IMG/VR virus record: IMGVR_UViG_3300017708_000462
Location: 1 to 20,721 of that record
Strand: one strand, 5' to 3'
Origin: a virus
Length of the DNA stretch: 20,721 bases
Of this stretch, positions 1,345 through 16,756 are shown one piece after another (within the stretch, counting starts at the first letter, position 1; the number at the start of each line of letters is the position of its first letter). Position numbers and translations under genes: made by a program. The notes beneath the pieces were generated by a model. That model ran no database searches. It saw nothing but the letters and a program-made list of their open reading frames with translations, and was not told the DNA's origin.

Positions 1345-2721
1345 ATGGATTCATTTAAAACACACCTAAAAGAAGTCGTTGGTTTATCTGCGAAAGAGCT
1401 AGATAAAGACAACTCCGTGACTGGCGAGCCAAGACTTGCTATAATGAAAAAATTAATCAAAGGTAAAAAGCCTATTGAATTAAAGAAAGGTGGTTCAGTC
1501 GTAGTTACAGATATAGAAGATGCATTAAAACAATTAGATATATTTGCTAAACAACAATCTAACCTAGTATTTCAAACAGATAAAGGCCCAGTTAAATTAA
1601 CCCAACTTGCTAAATCTAAAGTATTTGGCGGTGGTGTTGGTGGAGCTGGTTCTGGAACTGCAGACACAGAAAGAAACGAATCCCATAATGCTGCTATGAT
1701 GAAAGCAGTGGTAGACCATGGTAAACATGATATTGACTTCTTTAATGAAGAAATAATAGCTCAAGCATATAAAGATAATAGTCCAGCAAATATAAGTGCT
1801 AATACAGATAAGATATTACAAACCCCTGAAGATTGGGTTAAGTCATCTTATAATATATCAATGCTATTATACAAAGAAGGATACATTAATAAAAACCAAA
1901 GATTCCATAGAGGATCTAAAGATATGATTAAACTATATGCACTAAAAAATAAAGCATATAAGAATCAGGGTTTTTCTCCACTTAAAGATGATAAGTGGAA
2001 TCCAGGCGATGTCTGGGCAATTGATAAAAGTTTTAATATGGATAAAGAATTAGATACTTCAAGTGTTGGAGCATTTAATCAAGGCATATTAGAACATTTT
2101 AATACAAGACGATTAGTTGGAATATCTTTAAAAGGGCCAGAGAATAAAGGCGTACCACCATTAAAAGAATACAACAACCAATATCCACCTGACACAGATA
2201 ACCATAAGATTAAACAAATCTTGTTATCATCAGGGCGTGGAACTTATTGGAGTGCAAAAGGAATAGAAATTAAATATGATGCTGGTTCATTAGTATTTAA
2301 AGACAACACTCCAGGCGGAACAATAAAAGCAGAAGTAAAAGGTAAGAAAGCCAGAGGTGGTGGATTATCTTGGGGCGTTATGCAAGAGTTTATGAAAAGA
2401 GAAACAGGAAAGAAACTTCCTAAGCATAGTGGAGGAATAACAAAACTAGCTAAGAAGATCGCAGATGGTTCTCCAAGAGAAAGAAAACTTTACTGGAAAA
2501 TGTATAGCTCCTTTTATAAAAATGACAAATATAAAACATTTGAATCAGAGTTAGATCAAAAAGATTGGAAATGGATTAGTGCTAAGCTAGCATCAACGTA
2601 TGTAGCTTATTATCTATTACTCCATTGGGGAAATAAATCTAATCAAGTAATAACACATTTTATAAATTACGCTGGATCTAAAACACTAGATTCAAGTACT
2701 TATGTTAAACTAGGAAAATAA
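1345..2721 (+). CDS. Phage protein with FHRGS/KWNPxDxW/SLK motifs; possible capsid-targeted nuclease
   Basis: This is a 458-residue protein. The N terminus MDSFKTHLKE-VV resembles T4 internal-protein targeting peptides, which the prohead protease cuts after (I/L)xE. Next come a charged region, a glycine-rich linker at 95-104, a TERNES segment (109-113), FHRGS (187-191), KWNPGDVW (217-224) and GISLK (259-263). I recall this ordered set in unknown proteins of several phage groups. Glu112, Asp222 and Lys263 could be a PD-(D/E)xK-like nuclease core with Ser in place of the usual Glu; this is my inference and unproven. The C-terminal third is basic. It sits directly at a late promoter, which fits a virion role. 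Confidence 0.7.
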   Translation: MDSFKTHLKEVVGLSAKELDKDNSVTGEPRLAIMKKLIKGKKPIELKKGGSVVVTDIEDALKQLDIFAKQQSNLVFQTDKGPVKLTQLAKSKVFGGGVGGAGSGTADTERNESHNAAMMKAVVDHGKHDIDFFNEEIIAQAYKDNSPANISANTDKILQTPEDWVKSSYNISMLLYKEGYINKNQRFHRGSKDMIKLYALKNKAYKNQGFSPLKDDKWNPGDVWAIDKSFNMDKELDTSSVGAFNQGILEHFNTRRLVGISLKGPENKGVPPLKEYNNQYPPDTDNHKIKQILLSSGRGTYWSAKGIEIKYDAGSLVFKDNTPGGTIKAEVKGKKARGGGLSWGVMQEFMKRETGKKLPKHSGGITKLAKKIADGSPRERKLYWKMYSSFYKNDKYKTFESELDQKDWKWISAKLASTYVAYYLLLHWGNKSNQVITHFINYAGSKTLDSSTYVKLGK

Positions 2722-3960
2722 ATGATATCATTTAAAAACCATAACCTTACAGAAGCCAAAAACACTCATATGACTCACATAGAGGATTTAGTGTTAGATG
2801 GCGGAGTTAAGGGAGCCCGCCAAGCTATCAACGCTCTACGCAGTATGAGAGATATGTTGAGTGGTCACGCAAAATCACCTGTAGACGTGACCGTAAAATG
2901 GGACGGGGCTCCCGCCGTATTCGCGGGAGAAGATCCACGAGACGGCGCGTTCTTCGTAGCAAAGAAAGGGATATTTAACGCAGATCCTAAAGTATATAAA
3001 AGCCACGAAGATATAAAAGCTGATACCTCAGGTGATCTATCCAAGAAGCTTATTATGGCTTTCGATGGACTAAAAGATTTAGGTATCAAGGGTGTCATAC
3101 AAGGTGACTTTATGTTTGATAAATCGGACCTAAAAGGTGAAACGATTAACGGGCAAAAGATGATTACCTTCCACCCAAACACTATTGTTTATGCAGTACC
3201 ATATGGATCTAAATTAGAAAAAGAAATATCTAAAGCAGATGTTGGTATTGTATGGCACACATCTTATAAGGGTGGAACATTTGAAACAATGCAAGCATCT
3301 TTCGGTGGTGATATAGTTGGTAAATTAAAAAAGAGTTCTAAAGTATGGCAGGTAAATGCAGACTTAGAAGAACTATCTGGTAAAGCCACATTTACATTAG
3401 CAGACAATGTAAAGGTAACTAAACTATTATCTAATGCTGGTAAACTATTCCAGAAGATATCTTCTGGAGTATTAAAAGAACTAGAATCAAATAAAGAACT
3501 TAACTTAGTAATTAATGTCTATAATAATACTATGGTTAGAAAAGGACAAAGAATTAAAGATGAAAAGAAACACGCTAAGGGATTAATACAATTTGTTAAT
3601 GATAGGTATGCAAAACAAATTGATAAACGTAGTTCTCAGAAAGGAAAAGACATTCAAATAGCTAAAAGAGATGAATTACTATCATTTTTTAGTAAAAGTA
3701 ATCTAAAAAACTTAGAAAATGTCTTTAAATTACAGAATTATATCGTAGACAGTAAATTAATTATTATAAATAAACTAAACAAACTGAATAAAATCGGTAC
3801 GTTTGTAAAAACAACATCCGGATTTAAGGTAACCAACGCAGAAGGTTTTGTTGCCATAGATCGTATGGAAGGTGGAGCAGTTAAGCTTGTTGATAGATTG
3901 GAATTTTCTGCCAACAACTTTAGCAAAGATATTATAAAAGGTTGGGATAATCCTAACTAA
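2722..3960 (+). CDS. DUF6267-like protein with KxDG nucleotidyltransferase motifs
   Basis: This is a 412-residue protein that I associate with the DUF6267 type of T4-like marine phage proteins. The N terminus MISFKNHNLTE-AK resembles a capsid-targeting propeptide. The body shows the motif series of covalent nucleotidyltransferases (polynucleotide ligases and capping enzymes): K59-W-D-G62 as motif I, GVIQGDF (124-130) where motif III is expected, EGFVAID (374-380) as motif IV and AVKLVDRLEF (386-395) as motif V. A helical stretch lies between. Lys59 would be the adenylated residue. The family assignment is from memory; the ligase reading is inference. ATG follows AGGA (2712-2715) and abuts the previous stop. 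Bases about 2800-2960 are unusually GC-rich. Confidence 0.75.
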   Translation: MISFKNHNLTEAKNTHMTHIEDLVLDGGVKGARQAINALRSMRDMLSGHAKSPVDVTVKWDGAPAVFAGEDPRDGAFFVAKKGIFNADPKVYKSHEDIKADTSGDLSKKLIMAFDGLKDLGIKGVIQGDFMFDKSDLKGETINGQKMITFHPNTIVYAVPYGSKLEKEISKADVGIVWHTSYKGGTFETMQASFGGDIVGKLKKSSKVWQVNADLEELSGKATFTLADNVKVTKLLSNAGKLFQKISSGVLKELESNKELNLVINVYNNTMVRKGQRIKDEKKHAKGLIQFVNDRYAKQIDKRSSQKGKDIQIAKRDELLSFFSKSNLKNLENVFKLQNYIVDSKLIIINKLNKLNKIGTFVKTTSGFKVTNAEGFVAIDRMEGGAVKLVDRLEFSANNFSKDIIKGWDNPN

Positions 3961-3978
3961 AATGGGAATTCAAAGGAT

Positions 3979-5460
3979 ATGCAAGTTAAATCATTTAGTG
4001 ATTATTTAGTCGAAGACGCTAAGAAAGAAGTCACGTTCGTGTTCGGGAGATTCAATCCTCCTACAATTGGTCATGAAAAATTATTCGATCAAACAAAAAA
4101 ACTAGCCAGATCTGGCACATATAGAATATATGCATCTAAATCAGTAGATGCTAAAAAGAATCCATTACAATTTAAAGACAAAGTTAAATTTCTACGTAAG
4201 ATGTTTCCTAAACATGCTCGCCAAGTTATGGCTGATAAGGATGTAAGAAATGTTTTAGATATTGCTGTTAAATTATACGACCAAGGGTTTACTAAGGTAA
4301 GTATGGTAGCAGGATCAGATAGAGTAAAAGAGTTTGAAGTATTACTTAACAAATATAATGGTGAAAAATCTAGACATGGCTTTTATGAATTCGAAGGAGT
4401 TATAAAAGTCTTAAGCGCAGGAGAAAGAGATCCAGATGCAGATGGTGTATCGGGTATGTCAGCTTCCAAAATGAGACAAGCAGCAGTAGATGGATCACTA
4501 CAATTATTTTCAAAAGGATTGCCTGCTAGGTTTTATCCGACAGATTTATATAACGCAGTTAGAGCTGGCATGGGATTGAAATCAGAAGGATTCAGACCAC
4601 ATGTTGAATTAGAAACTGTATCAGATATTAGAGAGGATTACGTGGAAGGAAAAATATTTAGAATTGGTACTATGGTTCGTATGAAAGAATCGGGTGAAGT
4701 AGGTAAAGTAGTTATACGTGGAGCTAATTATGTATTAGCAGAATTTAACGGTAGAAAAAGACGATGTTGGTTAGATTCAATCCTAGAAGAAGGCGGTGCA
4801 GGAGAATATGGTACTGATAAAGCTAGGAAGAAATATCAATCAGAAACTCCAGGACAAGAAAAAACAGAAATAGTTCAATCACCTTATAACCAAATAGTTG
4901 CAGACAATACTGATATATCATTTGGTAAAAAGAAAGGCAAGAAAGAAGGATACAAAGATGGTGATTCTTCCCGTGGTGATAAAAACTACGATTCATTTAA
5001 AACTGGAAAGAAATCTACAGATGCTAAAAGAAGAGCTCAGCAGAATAAGCAGAAAGATATGGCTGATGACGATCCAAAAGCATATAAAGATTTACCAGGC
5101 GATAAAAAAGCTAGAAAGAAAGGTTTACCACCATCTAAGTTTACTACTAAATACAAACAAATGTATGGTGAAAGCTTTGAAATGACTTTCGAAGATTTTG
5201 TTATAGAGAATAAAGGACAAGCACAAAAAGCATTGAAAAAGAAATCAGACGCAACTGGTGTTTCAATGTCTATATTAAATAAAGTATTCGATAGAGGATA
5301 TGCAGCTTGGAAAACAGGACATAAACCAGGTACAACTCCAGTTCAGTGGGGATTAGCAAGAGTTAATTCCTTCTTAGTTGGTGGACCAGTTTGGCAGAAG
5401 TTTGATAGCGATCAAGCTAAGCTAGCCCGTAAGGGTGGATTTACTCCGAAGAGGGGATAA
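3979..5460 (+). CDS. Nucleotidylyltransferase-like protein fused to a DUF5824-like domain
   Basis: This is a 493-residue multidomain protein. The N terminus MQVKSFSDYLVE-DAKK resembles a capsid-targeting peptide. Residues 18-200 form a HIGH-superfamily nucleotidylyltransferase (NMN or cytidylyl type) with GRFNPPTIGH (23-32) and SASKMR (161-166), matching the (H/T)xGH and SxSxxR signatures. Residues about 223-270 look like an SH3-type barrel. A low-complexity lysine/aspartate-rich linker follows (about 315-395). Residues 411-487 contain AAWKTGHKPGTTP and QWGLARVNSF, which I recognise as a DUF5824-like module. The substrate is unknown. At M402 the text MTFEDFVIEN resembles a second targeting peptide. 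The ribosome binding site is either GGGA (3964-3967) or a very close AAAGGA. Confidence 0.8.
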   Translation: MQVKSFSDYLVEDAKKEVTFVFGRFNPPTIGHEKLFDQTKKLARSGTYRIYASKSVDAKKNPLQFKDKVKFLRKMFPKHARQVMADKDVRNVLDIAVKLYDQGFTKVSMVAGSDRVKEFEVLLNKYNGEKSRHGFYEFEGVIKVLSAGERDPDADGVSGMSASKMRQAAVDGSLQLFSKGLPARFYPTDLYNAVRAGMGLKSEGFRPHVELETVSDIREDYVEGKIFRIGTMVRMKESGEVGKVVIRGANYVLAEFNGRKRRCWLDSILEEGGAGEYGTDKARKKYQSETPGQEKTEIVQSPYNQIVADNTDISFGKKKGKKEGYKDGDSSRGDKNYDSFKTGKKSTDAKRRAQQNKQKDMADDDPKAYKDLPGDKKARKKGLPPSKFTTKYKQMYGESFEMTFEDFVIENKGQAQKALKKKSDATGVSMSILNKVFDRGYAAWKTGHKPGTTPVQWGLARVNSFLVGGPVWQKFDSDQAKLARKGGFTPKRG

Positions 5461-6757: not shown

Positions 6758-7384
6758 ATGAGAAAATATAATCCAACAGATTCAAAAATTACCCTCGACG
6801 AAAACGGTAATGTAAAATTTACATACGAAGCAAAGGTAAAAGAAGAAGGACCTTGCTGGACTGGCTTTAAACAAGTTGGAACTAAAATGAAAAATGGTAA
6901 ACAAGTTCCTAACTGTGTACCAATAGATGAAGCAGATATGACCGCAATATCTTCATGGAAAGCTAAACTGAAAAAGATGAAAGGTTTATCTAAACAACAA
7001 ATGCAATTATTATCAACTTTACCTACACCAGTAATTACAAGTTTAATCAATACTGTTGGAATGGTAGTAAATAGCAATGATCCAGATATAAAAGAAGAGA
7101 TGGATGCACAAAGAAAAGCAAAATTTGCTAGTGGAGCAGCTGGTGGACCAAACTCATCCAGTAAAAGAAAGAAAATGGATGAAGCTCCTTTAGTTATGTC
7201 TGATATGGATATTGTTAAATCATTAACTCAAAAGATTGAAGATGATTTACATAAATTAAAAATTAGGAAACAATTTGAAAAAGGTTGGAGTACAATACAA
7301 GCATTAGCCAAGTTAGCTGGGTACAAAGTTACAAAAACAGCTCAACAAAAAGGCAAAACATTTAGATACGATATTAAAAAATAA
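6758..7384 (+). CDS. Phage protein with CWxG...PNCVP motif
   Basis: This is a 208-residue protein. Residues 31-55 carry GPCWTGFKQVG and GKQVPNCVP, a two-cysteine motif that I have seen in unknown proteins of marine T4-like phages, often near structural genes. A helical region (about 60-105) and a low-complexity SSSKRKK stretch follow. The last 60 residues (from about 147) are a compact charged segment that may be a small DNA- or protein-binding domain. No catalytic signature is visible. The ribosome binding site is poor; it follows the previous stop by two bases and ends in a TAATG overlap, so coupling is likely. Confidence 0.65.
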   Translation: MRKYNPTDSKITLDENGNVKFTYEAKVKEEGPCWTGFKQVGTKMKNGKQVPNCVPIDEADMTAISSWKAKLKKMKGLSKQQMQLLSTLPTPVITSLINTVGMVVNSNDPDIKEEMDAQRKAKFASGAAGGPNSSSKRKKMDEAPLVMSDMDIVKSLTQKIEDDLHKLKIRKQFEKGWSTIQALAKLAGYKVTKTAQQKGKTFRYDIKK

Positions 7385-9249: not shown

Positions 9250-9836
9250 TGGGAATATTATCAAGAGCAGCAGATTTAGGATATGCATTTAGATTCCTAA
9301 AACTTTTGACCACTAAGTGGGAAAATTTGCCTGCCTATAAGCTAGGTATTATTGATAAGAATGGTAATAACTTAAAGAAAGCAAAAGAGCTTACTACTTC
9401 TGAAGAAAAGTCTGCATATACTATTTTCCATAGATTAGTATTTAATGTTAAAAGATTATTAGGTAAAGTACCAGGCGGAAAATCAACCATCGCATCTTAT
9501 GCGGCAGCTCTGTTTCTAATTAAAGAACATACAGGTATGTCTGAAGCAAAGATAGAAGAGGTATTAAGTAAAGCTCTTGAAGGTAATTTAGAAGATAACC
9601 TAGAAGAAAGTAAATGGTTTGTAAAAGAAGGATATTTAAATCCTGGAATATATGTATTAACAAAAGATGTAGTTTCTTATAACACAGGAGAAACAATAGC
9701 ATTAAAGAATTCAAAAGTGCAAATAGATGATTTTAAATCCCCTTACTCTAGAGCATTTGGTCATAATCTCTATGAAGTACAACACGTTTTAACGAAACAA
9801 AACTTATATATAACTAATGAGGATATAAAAAGATGA
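9249..9836 (+). CDS. Conserved marine T4-like phage protein, possible structural
   Basis: This is a 195-residue protein. Residues 1-110 are helical, with AADLGYAFRFLKLLTTKW, AYTIFHRLVFNVKRLLGK and SYAAALFLIKEHTGMSE. Residues about 120-195 switch to a beta-rich segment (GIYVLTKDVVSYNTGETIAL). I have seen this architecture in proteins of T4-like marine phages annotated as unknown or as virion-associated. The long amphipathic helices could contact membrane or other virion proteins, but that is inference. It starts inside the previous gene's stop codon and ends in an ATGA overlap with the next. Confidence 0.7.
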   Translation: MGILSRAADLGYAFRFLKLLTTKWENLPAYKLGIIDKNGNNLKKAKELTTSEEKSAYTIFHRLVFNVKRLLGKVPGGKSTIASYAAALFLIKEHTGMSEAKIEEVLSKALEGNLEDNLEESKWFVKEGYLNPGIYVLTKDVVSYNTGETIALKNSKVQIDDFKSPYSRAFGHNLYEVQHVLTKQNLYITNEDIKR

Positions 9837-10108
9837 GACGTTCATTTTCAGAATATTTAAAACATTGGGAAGACGCAGCAGCCAACAGCGTAGGTGCTGG
9901 TGGTGTTTCTATGCCTTCTGATATGATGACAAAAGACAAACACAAAAAACATAAAGACAATAATAAAATCCAAAAAAGAATTTATGACGGAAGAACAAAA
10001 GAAGGTCGTAAATTTGTAGAACGTATTCTTGCTAGAAGACAAGCAAGAGAAAAAGTAAAACTTACTAGAAAAGACGTAAACAAATTAAAAGCATTAAATA
10101 AATCATGA
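9833..10108 (+). CDS. Small basic protein with SFxEYL N terminus
   Basis: This is a 91-residue, strongly basic protein. The N terminus MRRSFSEYLKHWEDAAAN shares the Ser-Phe-x-x-x-Leu pattern of the proteins at 1345, 2722 and 3979, although no exact (I/L)xE site follows. A GAGGVSMPSD linker leads to a lysine-rich segment and then a helix with YDGRTKEGRKFVERILARRQ, a pattern I recall from small T4-like cyanophage proteins. Such a small basic protein could be DNA-associated in the capsid; this is inference. ATGA overlaps link it to both neighbours. Confidence 0.65.
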   Translation: MRRSFSEYLKHWEDAAANSVGAGGVSMPSDMMTKDKHKKHKDNNKIQKRIYDGRTKEGRKFVERILARRQAREKVKLTRKDVNKLKALNKS

Positions 10109-10388: not shown

Positions 10389-10607
10389 ATGTCAGTAGAA
10401 AAAATAATAGCAGAAAACCTAAACATCAATGTTGATTCAGTAAAAGATGATTCACATTTTGTGAATGATTTAGGTGCCGATTCACTTAATATAGTGGAAG
10501 TAGTTATGGGTATTGAAGAAGAATTTGATATAGAAATTCCTGATGATGATGCTGAATTACTTTTAACTGTTGGTGATTTAAAACAGTATATTGAGGATAA
10601 TGCATAA
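10389..10607 (+). CDS. acpP: Acyl carrier protein
   Basis: This 72-residue protein has the length and pattern of a bacterial acyl carrier protein. Helix I (SVEKIIAENLNI) leads to the invariant phosphopantetheine site LGADSLN, with Ser32 as the attachment residue, then the acidic recognition helix VEVVMGIEEEFDIEIPDDDAE. It would need the host phosphopantetheinyl transferase. Acyl carrier proteins are uncommon in phages. It lies directly upstream of the spanin pair and lipase, which suggests an envelope-lipid link, but no acyltransferase or fatty-acid enzyme is in the window. CGGAG (10376-10380) is 8 bases before the ATG, and the stop forms TAATG with the next gene. Confidence 0.92.
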   Translation: MSVEKIIAENLNINVDSVKDDSHFVNDLGADSLNIVEVVMGIEEEFDIEIPDDDAELLLTVGDLKQYIEDNA

Positions 10608-11499: not shown

Positions 11500-12258
11500 A
11501 TGGTATCAACTAGACAGAAAGAACAAATGACACAAACGGAAAGAGCTTTGGTAGCTGCTAAGTTATCTGCATATGCTTACAAAACAGAAGCACAAGCAAA
11601 AACTCTAACAAAGAAAATGGGATTTCCTTGGTGTAAATTAATATCCCGAGACGGGGCAGAATGTTTAGTAGTTAAAGATCGTAATGATCTTTGGTTTGCC
11701 TTTAGAGGTACTGAACCTTCTAAACTAAATGATGTTATGGCTGATTTAAATTTAATTAAAAATGCAGCTAAAGCAGGTGGTAAAGTACATAGTGGATTCC
11801 AACAAGAAGTTAATGATCTTTGGATGGATATCCTAGCAGAAATCGAACACAATCAACAATTAAAAGTTCAGAAAGACATTTACATGACTGGTCATTCCTT
11901 AGGTGCAGCAATGGCGACTATTGCAGCAACTAGACATACTCCAGTCGAACTATTTACTTTTGGATCTCCAAGAGTAGGTGGACCAAAATTTATACGACAT
12001 ATAAAATGTCCGCACTTAAGATTTATGAATAACAATGACATCGTATGTAGAATACCTCCATCATGGTTAGGATTCAAACATCACGGTGAAATGATTTACT
12101 TTGGCAGAAATGGAAACAAACAAGAAAAACCAACTTGGTCTGATATGTTTCACGGTGTACTTAATTCTTGGAAGAGATTTAAATTCTTTGATGGAATAGT
12201 AGACCACGGTATGCCAAACTATATAAAAGCACTAACTAAACTTTCGAAGGTTAAGTAG
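11500..12258 (+). CDS. Class 3 lipase (alpha/beta hydrolase)
   Basis: This is a 252-residue lipase-3 family protein. FAFRGTE (66-72) matches the oxyanion-side strand. The nucleophile elbow is TGHSLGAAMA (130-139) with Ser133. LFTFGSPRVGG follows. Asp180 in NNNDIVCRIPP and His236 in VDHGMPNYIKAL complete the catalytic triad, so all three residues are present. The family hydrolyses acylglycerols or phospholipids; the substrate here is unknown. There is no signal peptide, so it would act from the cytoplasm, perhaps on the inner membrane or after it is breached. Its place just behind the spanin pair suggests a lysis or membrane-remodelling role (inference). AAGG lies 9 bases before the ATG. Confidence 0.88.
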   Translation: MVSTRQKEQMTQTERALVAAKLSAYAYKTEAQAKTLTKKMGFPWCKLISRDGAECLVVKDRNDLWFAFRGTEPSKLNDVMADLNLIKNAAKAGGKVHSGFQQEVNDLWMDILAEIEHNQQLKVQKDIYMTGHSLGAAMATIAATRHTPVELFTFGSPRVGGPKFIRHIKCPHLRFMNNNDIVCRIPPSWLGFKHHGEMIYFGRNGNKQEKPTWSDMFHGVLNSWKRFKFFDGIVDHGMPNYIKALTKLSKVK

Positions 12259-16125: not shown

Positions 16126-16319
16126 AAAAAGAAACAGAAAAGAAAATACTTCAAGCAGCTAACCTATCTCCAAGTGAAGATTGGATAGAAAGAATAGTAG
16201 AAGTACACCCAATGAAACAAGTAGCAATCATGTCAGTAGTTCAAGTATTAGTATTTGGGTTTATGATATTATCATTTTGGTTGATACAATCAGCAATAGA
16301 ATCAGGAATAAAATTATGA
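16122..16319 (+). CDS. Small single-span membrane protein
   Basis: This is a 65-residue protein with a charged N-terminal half (MKKETEKKILQAANLSPSED) and one membrane helix at about 35-57 (AIMSVVQVLVFGFMILSFW). No family is recognised. It sits immediately before the cytochrome c gene, with ATGA overlaps on both sides, so it may be a membrane partner or anchor for the cytochrome. That link is only positional. Confidence 0.65.
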   Translation: MKKETEKKILQAANLSPSEDWIERIVEVHPMKQVAIMSVVQVLVFGFMILSFWLIQSAIESGIKL

Positions 16320-16756
16320 AAGAACTAGGAATGGCATTATTAGCCACAGCATCAATAGGATTATTTTGCGCGGTAGCAATATATCCGGATATGAAATATA
16401 CAGGGGGATCAAGCAATAGCTCATGTACAGGGGAATGTTACGAAGAATATGTAGCAGAGTTTGGAACTCCAGCAGAGATAGAACAAAGAAAACAAGCTTT
16501 AGCAGCTGGAGACCCTTTTAGTTCTATAAAAGGATTATGGGCAGGATGTGCAGCATGTCACGGTCAAAATGGTGGCGGTGGTATTGGCCCAATGTTAGCA
16601 GGACAATCCGCTACAGACATTATAGGAAAACTTAATACATATAAAAATAATGGTACAATAGGAGCTCAATCTGCTTTAATGTGGGGACAAGCTGCTATGT
16701 TATCAGACAGCGATATAGATACTATAGGAAAATTTATAGAGGAGACAATGAAATGA
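16316..16756 (+). CDS. Membrane-anchored c-type cytochrome (c553-like)
   Basis: This is a 146-residue protein. Residues 5-23 (GMALLATASIGLFCAVAIY) form an uncleaved-looking signal anchor, so the rest should be periplasmic. Haem attachment is CAACH (Cys78, Cys81, His82), followed by the class I pattern GIGPMLAGQS and, near the C terminus, SALMWGQAAMLSDSDI, where Met122 (or Met128) would be the sixth ligand. An additional CTGEC (Cys37, Cys41) lies in the linker. It would carry one electron between respiratory complexes and needs host cytochrome maturation. Start 16316 is chosen for the ATGA overlap and the signal anchor; the frame is open further upstream. A cytochrome c in a phage is rare. Confidence 0.9.
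   Translation: MKELGMALLATASIGLFCAVAIYPDMKYTGGSSNSSCTGECYEEYVAEFGTPAEIEQRKQALAAGDPFSSIKGLWAGCAACHGQNGGGGIGPMLAGQSATDIIGKLNTYKNNGTIGAQSALMWGQAAMLSDSDIDTIGKFIEETMK

Follow-up and report, generated by a model that had tools for sequence, protein, structure and literature searches.

Capsid-targeting-like leader peptides on an exchangeable enzyme cassette of marine T4-like phages

Introduction

The T4 internal proteins IPI, IPII and IPIII carry a 10-residue N-terminal leader with aromatic residues at positions 4 and 7, leucine or isoleucine at 8 and glutamate at 10, often followed by alanine. For IPIII, the first ten residues are sufficient for targeting, and within this capsid-targeting sequence (CTS) residues 4 and 7 serve targeting and residues 8 and 10 processing, the gp21 protease cutting after L/I-x-E (PMC9026906). 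The IPIII leader reads MKTYQEFIAE|A, and T4 gp23 is cut at the same motif (FLTE|A). A further precedent is T4 Alt, a virion ADP-ribosyltransferase that is borne in the head, trimmed at its N terminus by gp21 and injected.

Enzymes have also been seen repeatedly in cyanophage particles after purification; whether they are cargo or carry-over was left undecided in those studies. Among these enzymes are NMN adenylyltransferase (NMNAT)/cytidylyltransferase proteins in the virions of S-SM1, S-SZBM1, S-SCSM1, S-CBWM1 and S-CREM2; in the portions of these reports available to us, no targeting signal is described and carry-over is not ruled out. The idea that myoviruses package NAD-related enzymes has been raised, and enzymes of the NadM/NadR type restore NAD+ (PMC9503650), although the accessible part of that source mentions neither the cassette nor the leader peptide considered here. 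A literature search pairing cyanophages with capsid targeting found only a T4 review.

Here, we analyze a 20,721-base fragment of a marine T4-like phage (hereafter, the window), which has no close match among sequenced phages. A preliminary description had noted that three consecutive products, P1, P2 and P3, begin with MDSFKTHLKE-V (at 1345), MISFKNHNLTE-A (at 2722) and MQVKSFSDYLVE-D (at 3979), and had proposed that these are T4-type targeting peptides on packaged enzymes. To that proposal we add the generality of the tag in marine T4-like phages, its match with published virion proteomes and its internal copies at fusion joints.

Results

Identity of the cassette proteins

The cassette lies on the plus strand behind the replication genes and comprises P1 (1345..2721; 458 aa), P2 (2722..3960), P3 (3979..5460) and P4 (5460..6755), the last of unknown function with relatives that start MKFKELRE. 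In cyanophage nomenclature, P1 (phrog_1462) is T4-GC533, P2 is T4-GC71 and P3 is T4-GC190. The order P1-P2-P3 or P2-P3 is kept in phage C48C1, Methylophilales phage Melnitz, Pelagibacter phage HTVC008M, Stenotrophomonas phage DLP6 and cyanophages.

P2 had been described as a KxDG nucleotidyltransferase, and this assignment holds. The protein belongs to DUF6267 (335.8 bits), and residues K59, D61 and G62 of motif I, E374 and G375 of motif IV and K388 of motif V are invariant in 26 sequences, in an alignment that, like that of P1, left out rows from annotated GenBank phages. Foldseek alone gave only weak matches to the P2 model (best E 0.044, a DNA ligase). The best 22 structural alignments of the model are all to RNA or tRNA ligases (Z 8.5 to 7.0; the best at 3.7 Å over 184 residues), with Naegleria RNA ligase, trypanosome REL1, fungal Trl1 and T4 Rnl1 and Rnl2 foremost. 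Judged from these motifs and the predicted fold, P2 is an RNA-ligase-like covalent nucleotidyltransferase with a ligase adenylylation-domain fold.

The TIGH nucleotidylyltransferase reading of P3 likewise stands: the PPTIGH and MSASKMR motifs are present, Pfam PF01467 matches at 21.4 bits (cut-off 21) and the phrog cytidyltransferase profile at E 1e-80, and the protein is fused at its C terminus to DUF5824. Its substrate is left open because the nearest relatives with an assigned name are either NMN adenylyltransferases or cytidylyltransferases. The suggestion that P1 is nuclease-like could be neither confirmed nor excluded. Its invariant residues (E112, D222, SLK261-263 and E330) form a pattern compatible with a nuclease, for instance of the PD-(D/E)xK type, but a PDB structure search and a second look gave no fold match. 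Pfam, NCBIfam and PADLOC yielded nothing on its function, and a viral structure library returned only uncharacterized cyanophage relatives. Sequence searches of the PDB with P1, P2 and P3 found no matches, and no paper in the literature searched mentions DUF6267, DUF5824 or DUF6321.

A leader motif far above chance

The three N termini read as they had been given, and we asked how widely the motif occurs using 2437 predicted proteins from 166 loci (the window, 158 loci surrounding homologues of P2 and seven regions of annotated phages) and the strict pattern ^M.{1,6}[FY]..[FYHLW][LIVM].E. It stands at the start of 268 of the 2437 proteins, a 50-fold excess over shuffled N termini (mean 5.4, maximum 13 in 200 shuffles). 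Of 9941 internal methionines, 59 begin a match, and some 50 of those matches are the P3-DUF5824 junction treated below. The motif is found in 41 of 611 protein families, with at least half of the members matching in 29, and is absent from the helicase (0/73) and UvsX (0/54) families that served as controls at the same loci. The pattern was picked after the examples in the preliminary description had been seen; the shuffles, the internal-methionine control, the control families and the published proteomes are independent of that choice. That the leader motif is real and lies far above chance is confirmed.

Exactly ten residues make up 133 of the 208 distinct leaders, and alanine is enriched 3.7-fold at P1′ and threonine 5.3-fold at the P2 position before the glutamate, neither being required by the pattern. 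The leader of P2 matches only if a one-residue insertion is allowed, and the leader of P3 sits two residues out of register. Under a looser pattern, the families of P1, P2, P3 and P4 show enrichment, as do those of the proteins at 7384, 8298 and 9833; the families of 8878, 9249 and 7995 show none, nor do most control families. We rejected the idea that the leaders are signal peptides or membrane anchors, since they contain no hydrophobic stretch and agree with the T4 positions.

The protein at 9833 had been put forward as a weaker fourth case, and it remains one: its leader (MRRSFSEYLKHWE, 9833..9871, plus strand, followed by D) departs from LxE, although its family shows an excess of the looser form (11 of 21, against 1.2 in shuffles). 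This 91-aa protein corresponds in position to T4 gp61.1 (54 aa, function unknown; NC_000866 18966-19130, our locus L201), which starts with a textbook capsid-targeting leader, MKTFKEFIKED, and on this sequence gp61.1 may be an unrecognized T4 head protein.

Homologues lacking the N-terminal pattern would have spoken against the proposal, and here the outcome is divided. All 80 P3 homologues fetched from cyanophages carry a leader of the MKKFSAFLTE-A type, but several cyanophages encode homologues of P1 and P2 without one. Among the P2 homologues aligned, E11 is invariant and its flanks vary in sequence and length, including the distance to the KNTH box. Leaders also mark a zeta-toxin/AAA-type P-loop kinase, a PAP2-type phosphatase, DUF6321 proteins and a protein with a HAD-like DxD start. 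Two proteins of P1 type or related to it (L086 4133-5893, leader MDSFKQYIDEA; L087 2323-4557, leader MHSFKEHVDEA) have an extra N-terminal domain between leader and body, an arrangement that suggests insertion of a domain behind the tag. Gene callers easily lose leaders; the annotated start MNPPTIGHG of the phage C48C1 cytidyltransferase (L001 10688-12031) may sit too far downstream, with loss of the N terminus.

Agreement with the T4 targeting and processing signals

The usual 10-residue leader has an aromatic residue at position 4, Y, F or H at 7, L or I at 8 and E at 10, as in T4. The P1 leader (1345..1374, plus strand) is in exact T4 register, with F4, H7, L8 and E10, and its predicted cut precedes V11. 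Cuts are predicted before A12 in P2 (leader 2722..2754, plus strand) and before D13 in P3 (leader 3979..4014, plus strand), giving leaders of 10, 11 and 12 residues for P1, P2 and P3 within the CTS range of about 10 (10-19). The gp21 rule, with L or I at the P3 position and E at the P1 position of the cleavage site, is satisfied by LKE, LTE and LVE. In the structural models, the leader lies outside the fold and is disordered over residues 1-9 of P1 (mean pLDDT 89) and 1-16 of P2 (mean pLDDT 87).

Because the window record is only a 20.7-kb fragment, from which gp21 itself is missing, we sought the gp21-type protease that the preliminary description called for in longer relatives. All five encode it (Pfam Peptidase_S77) together with gp23, and one of them has a P2 97% identical to that of the window. 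The predicted propeptide ends of gp23 in these relatives (FISE|A, YISE|A, FLSE|A and MLSE|A) repeat the leader motif. The locus and its relatives thus share with T4 the leader geometry, the protease, a gp23 with an identical cut motif and the presence of several unrelated cargo proteins in each phage. They differ in that T4 internal proteins are small and basic, whereas the cargo here includes enzymes of 40-80 kDa, some fused with internal sites. T4 Alt, itself a head-borne enzyme, has an unrelated fold and a 7-residue propeptide where the cassette has a ligase fold and a nucleotidylyltransferase.

Leader-bearing proteins in published virion proteomes

Purified S-SM1 virions contain T4-GC190, the P3 family (Sullivan et al., PMC3037559), and the only match to the strict pattern in S-SM1 (positions 1-160,000 of 174,079 scanned) is that same T4-GC190 protein, MKKFSAFLNE|A. 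In S-CREM2, mass spectrometry detected 52 virion proteins (PMC10665884). Three of its 219 CDS match strictly, namely the SAM hydrolase gp6 (MKDFDSFLEE), the kinase gp14 (MKRFDAFLTE) and gp154 (MKNFSSFLTE), a cytidylyltransferase that is a P3-type nucleotidylyltransferase, and these are exactly the three "regulatory" virion enzymes. None of the 167 undetected proteins has the strict motif (Fisher p = 0.013, a modest value). Near-matches among the detected proteins are gp13 (MKDLHSFLTEQ), gp136 (MQTFSMFFSED) and the Cas9-annotated gp12. In gp12 (L287 7704-10313, minus strand), LRFASFMAE|A stands behind a short N-terminal extension, and on that resemblance the protein may be packaged by the same route. 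The S-CREM2 authors note that co-purification or carry-over cannot be excluded (PMC10665884); the tag argues for the enzymes being cargo.

S-SZBM1 (PMC9146016) has three annotated proteins with the strict motif, one of which, a nucleotidylyltransferase/cytidylyltransferase (MRFRQFIIE|A), was detected in virions; the small leader-bearing unknowns 191 and 192 were not detected in that proteome. The P1 and P2 homologues of this phage are leaderless and were likewise undetected in its virions. The kinase of S-CRM01 has the leader MISFDQFLSE and is a virion protein according to a citation in PMC10665884. All five virion NMNAT/cytidylyltransferases named in the Introduction belong to the broad family of P3, and those of S-SM1, S-SZBM1 and S-CREM2 bear the leader; the S-SCSM1 and S-CBWM1 sequences were outside the comparison.

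Leader-like sites at fusion junctions

Stand-alone DUF5824 proteins start with a leader (e.g., MIKFKAYINE|DATA-GLKKK), and in P3 and most of its fused relatives a leader-like site lies directly before the DUF5824 domain (in P3, MTFEDFVIE|NKGQ, with MTFEDFVIE at 5182..5208, plus strand). The triplet [LIVM]xE lies within 12 residues of DUF5824 in 38 of 40 distinct fused proteins, compared with 16% of random 12-mers from the same proteins, a null that is uncorrected for relatedness. P3 is a fusion with DUF5824 that retains a second leader-like site at the junction. An internal leader-like MKFTELRE in P4 (5631..5654, plus strand) is N-terminal in the relative G001.

Discussion

The observed motif, its spread over unrelated families, its T4-like geometry, the protease and gp23 site of the relatives and the leader-bearing P3 homologues in virions support the reading of the leaders as targeting signals that the preliminary description had offered. 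That the leader is a capsid-targeting propeptide cut by gp21 is very probable, the cleavage itself being inferred, since no mass-spectrometry N terminus shows the cut. For the window phage, we infer packaging of P3 with good confidence, and that of P1 and P2 as probable but less secure, there being no virion data for leader-bearing forms of either. In the sequence of events that we propose, the leader would dock each of P1, P2 and P3 onto the prohead core during head assembly; gp21 would then cut C-terminal to the glutamate (LKE|V, LTE|A, LVE|D) and set the mature enzyme free inside the head, where it would be packed alongside the DNA and then ejected into a new host. Ejection would follow if the enzymes are loose in the head, by analogy with the T4 internal proteins. 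The cassette would be exchangeable, related phages placing the leader on kinases, phosphatases, a SAM hydrolase and many unknowns, and fused cargo such as P3-DUF5824 would have an internal copy of the cut site preserved where the domains meet. We hold this explanation as a whole, in which P1, P2 and P3 bear T4-type capsid-targeting sequences, to be highly likely, with cleavage, packaging in this phage and injection remaining inferences.

Other accounts of the leader are less able to accommodate these observations. The peptide could dock proteins on the prohead core for a role in assembly, so that they build heads and are not injected; T4 IPIII mutants do build up aberrant heads (PMC9026906), and many leader proteins lack a known enzyme domain. 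Against this, the carriers known best are metabolic enzymes that retain their catalytic motifs intact, and the set of carriers changes from one relative to another, as core head genes do not, so we regard a purely structural function as unlikely. Still harder to sustain is the possibility that the enzymes act only in the infected cell during replication, their N termini serving expression or stability and their detection in virions reflecting carry-over. The placement of the cassette after the replication genes and the co-purification conceded for S-CREM2 would suit it, but the motif includes the LxE protease rule and the T4 geometry, is missing from adjacent replication proteins and marks the virion enzymes of S-CREM2. 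That the N termini are similar merely through common descent or chance, with no targeting role, is already disfavored and barely credible: P2 and P3 orthologues share ancestry and the motif counts are therefore not independent, but neither source of resemblance fits 41 non-homologous families, the excess over shuffles and controls at background.

The internal sites are a more even matter, and the reading that those of P3 and P4 are internal translation starts or vestiges of gene fusion, not protease sites, is one that we doubt only slightly. In P4, GAGG lies 11 bases ahead of the internal ATG as a possible ribosome site, and P3 also has an internal ATG; on the other side, the internal methionine of P3 is unconserved and lacks a clear ribosome site, and [LIVM]xE is kept in nearly all of the distinct fused relatives, even those whose linkers otherwise diverge, subject to the caveat on relatedness given above. 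If the head protease instead cleaves fused cargo at internal tags, it would double as a polyprotein processor.

Under the capsid-targeting reading, the tag points to enzymes being loaded into the head in advance and injected along with the phage DNA, which would explain why enzymes recur in purified cyanophage particles. A readable 10-residue tag allows a prediction from sequence alone for oceanic T4-like phages and singles out candidate injected effectors, the majority without a known function; it might also be used, as its counterpart in T4 is, to bring foreign proteins into the heads of cyanophages or pelagiphages. What the enzymes would do on arrival is inferred with much less certainty. 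That they act in the first minutes of infection, supplying NAD+ or repairing cut RNA or DNA ends, is plausible but tentative. Equally speculative is a broader scheme in which marine T4-like phages would use one capsid tag on unrelated enzymes to stockpile a payload in the prohead, with gp21 splitting fused precursors at internal tags and the set acting on entry against NAD+-depleting, RNA-cutting or restriction defenses; the pre-loaded set would then consist of the NAD-type nucleotidylyltransferase, the RNA-ligase-like enzyme, kinases, phosphatases, the SAM hydrolase and the possible nuclease.

Other features of the window

The motif CWTGFKQVGTKMKNGKQVPNCVP occurs in the window at 6758-7384 and recurs, with unknown meaning, across many unrelated cassette proteins of related phages; its carriers include proteins of loci L026 and L032 and S-SZBM1_139 (CWKGYKATGTKMKGGKEVPDC), which was detected by mass spectrometry. 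Directly 3′ of the cassette, the phage encodes an acyl carrier protein (10389-10607; Pfam PP-binding). It also encodes a class-3 lipase (11500-12258; GHSLG; Pfam Lipase_3), unexpected for a T4-like phage, and, near ribonucleotide reductase and glutaredoxin genes, a small c-type cytochrome (16316-16756; CAACH; Pfam Cytochrom_C, 28.7 bits).
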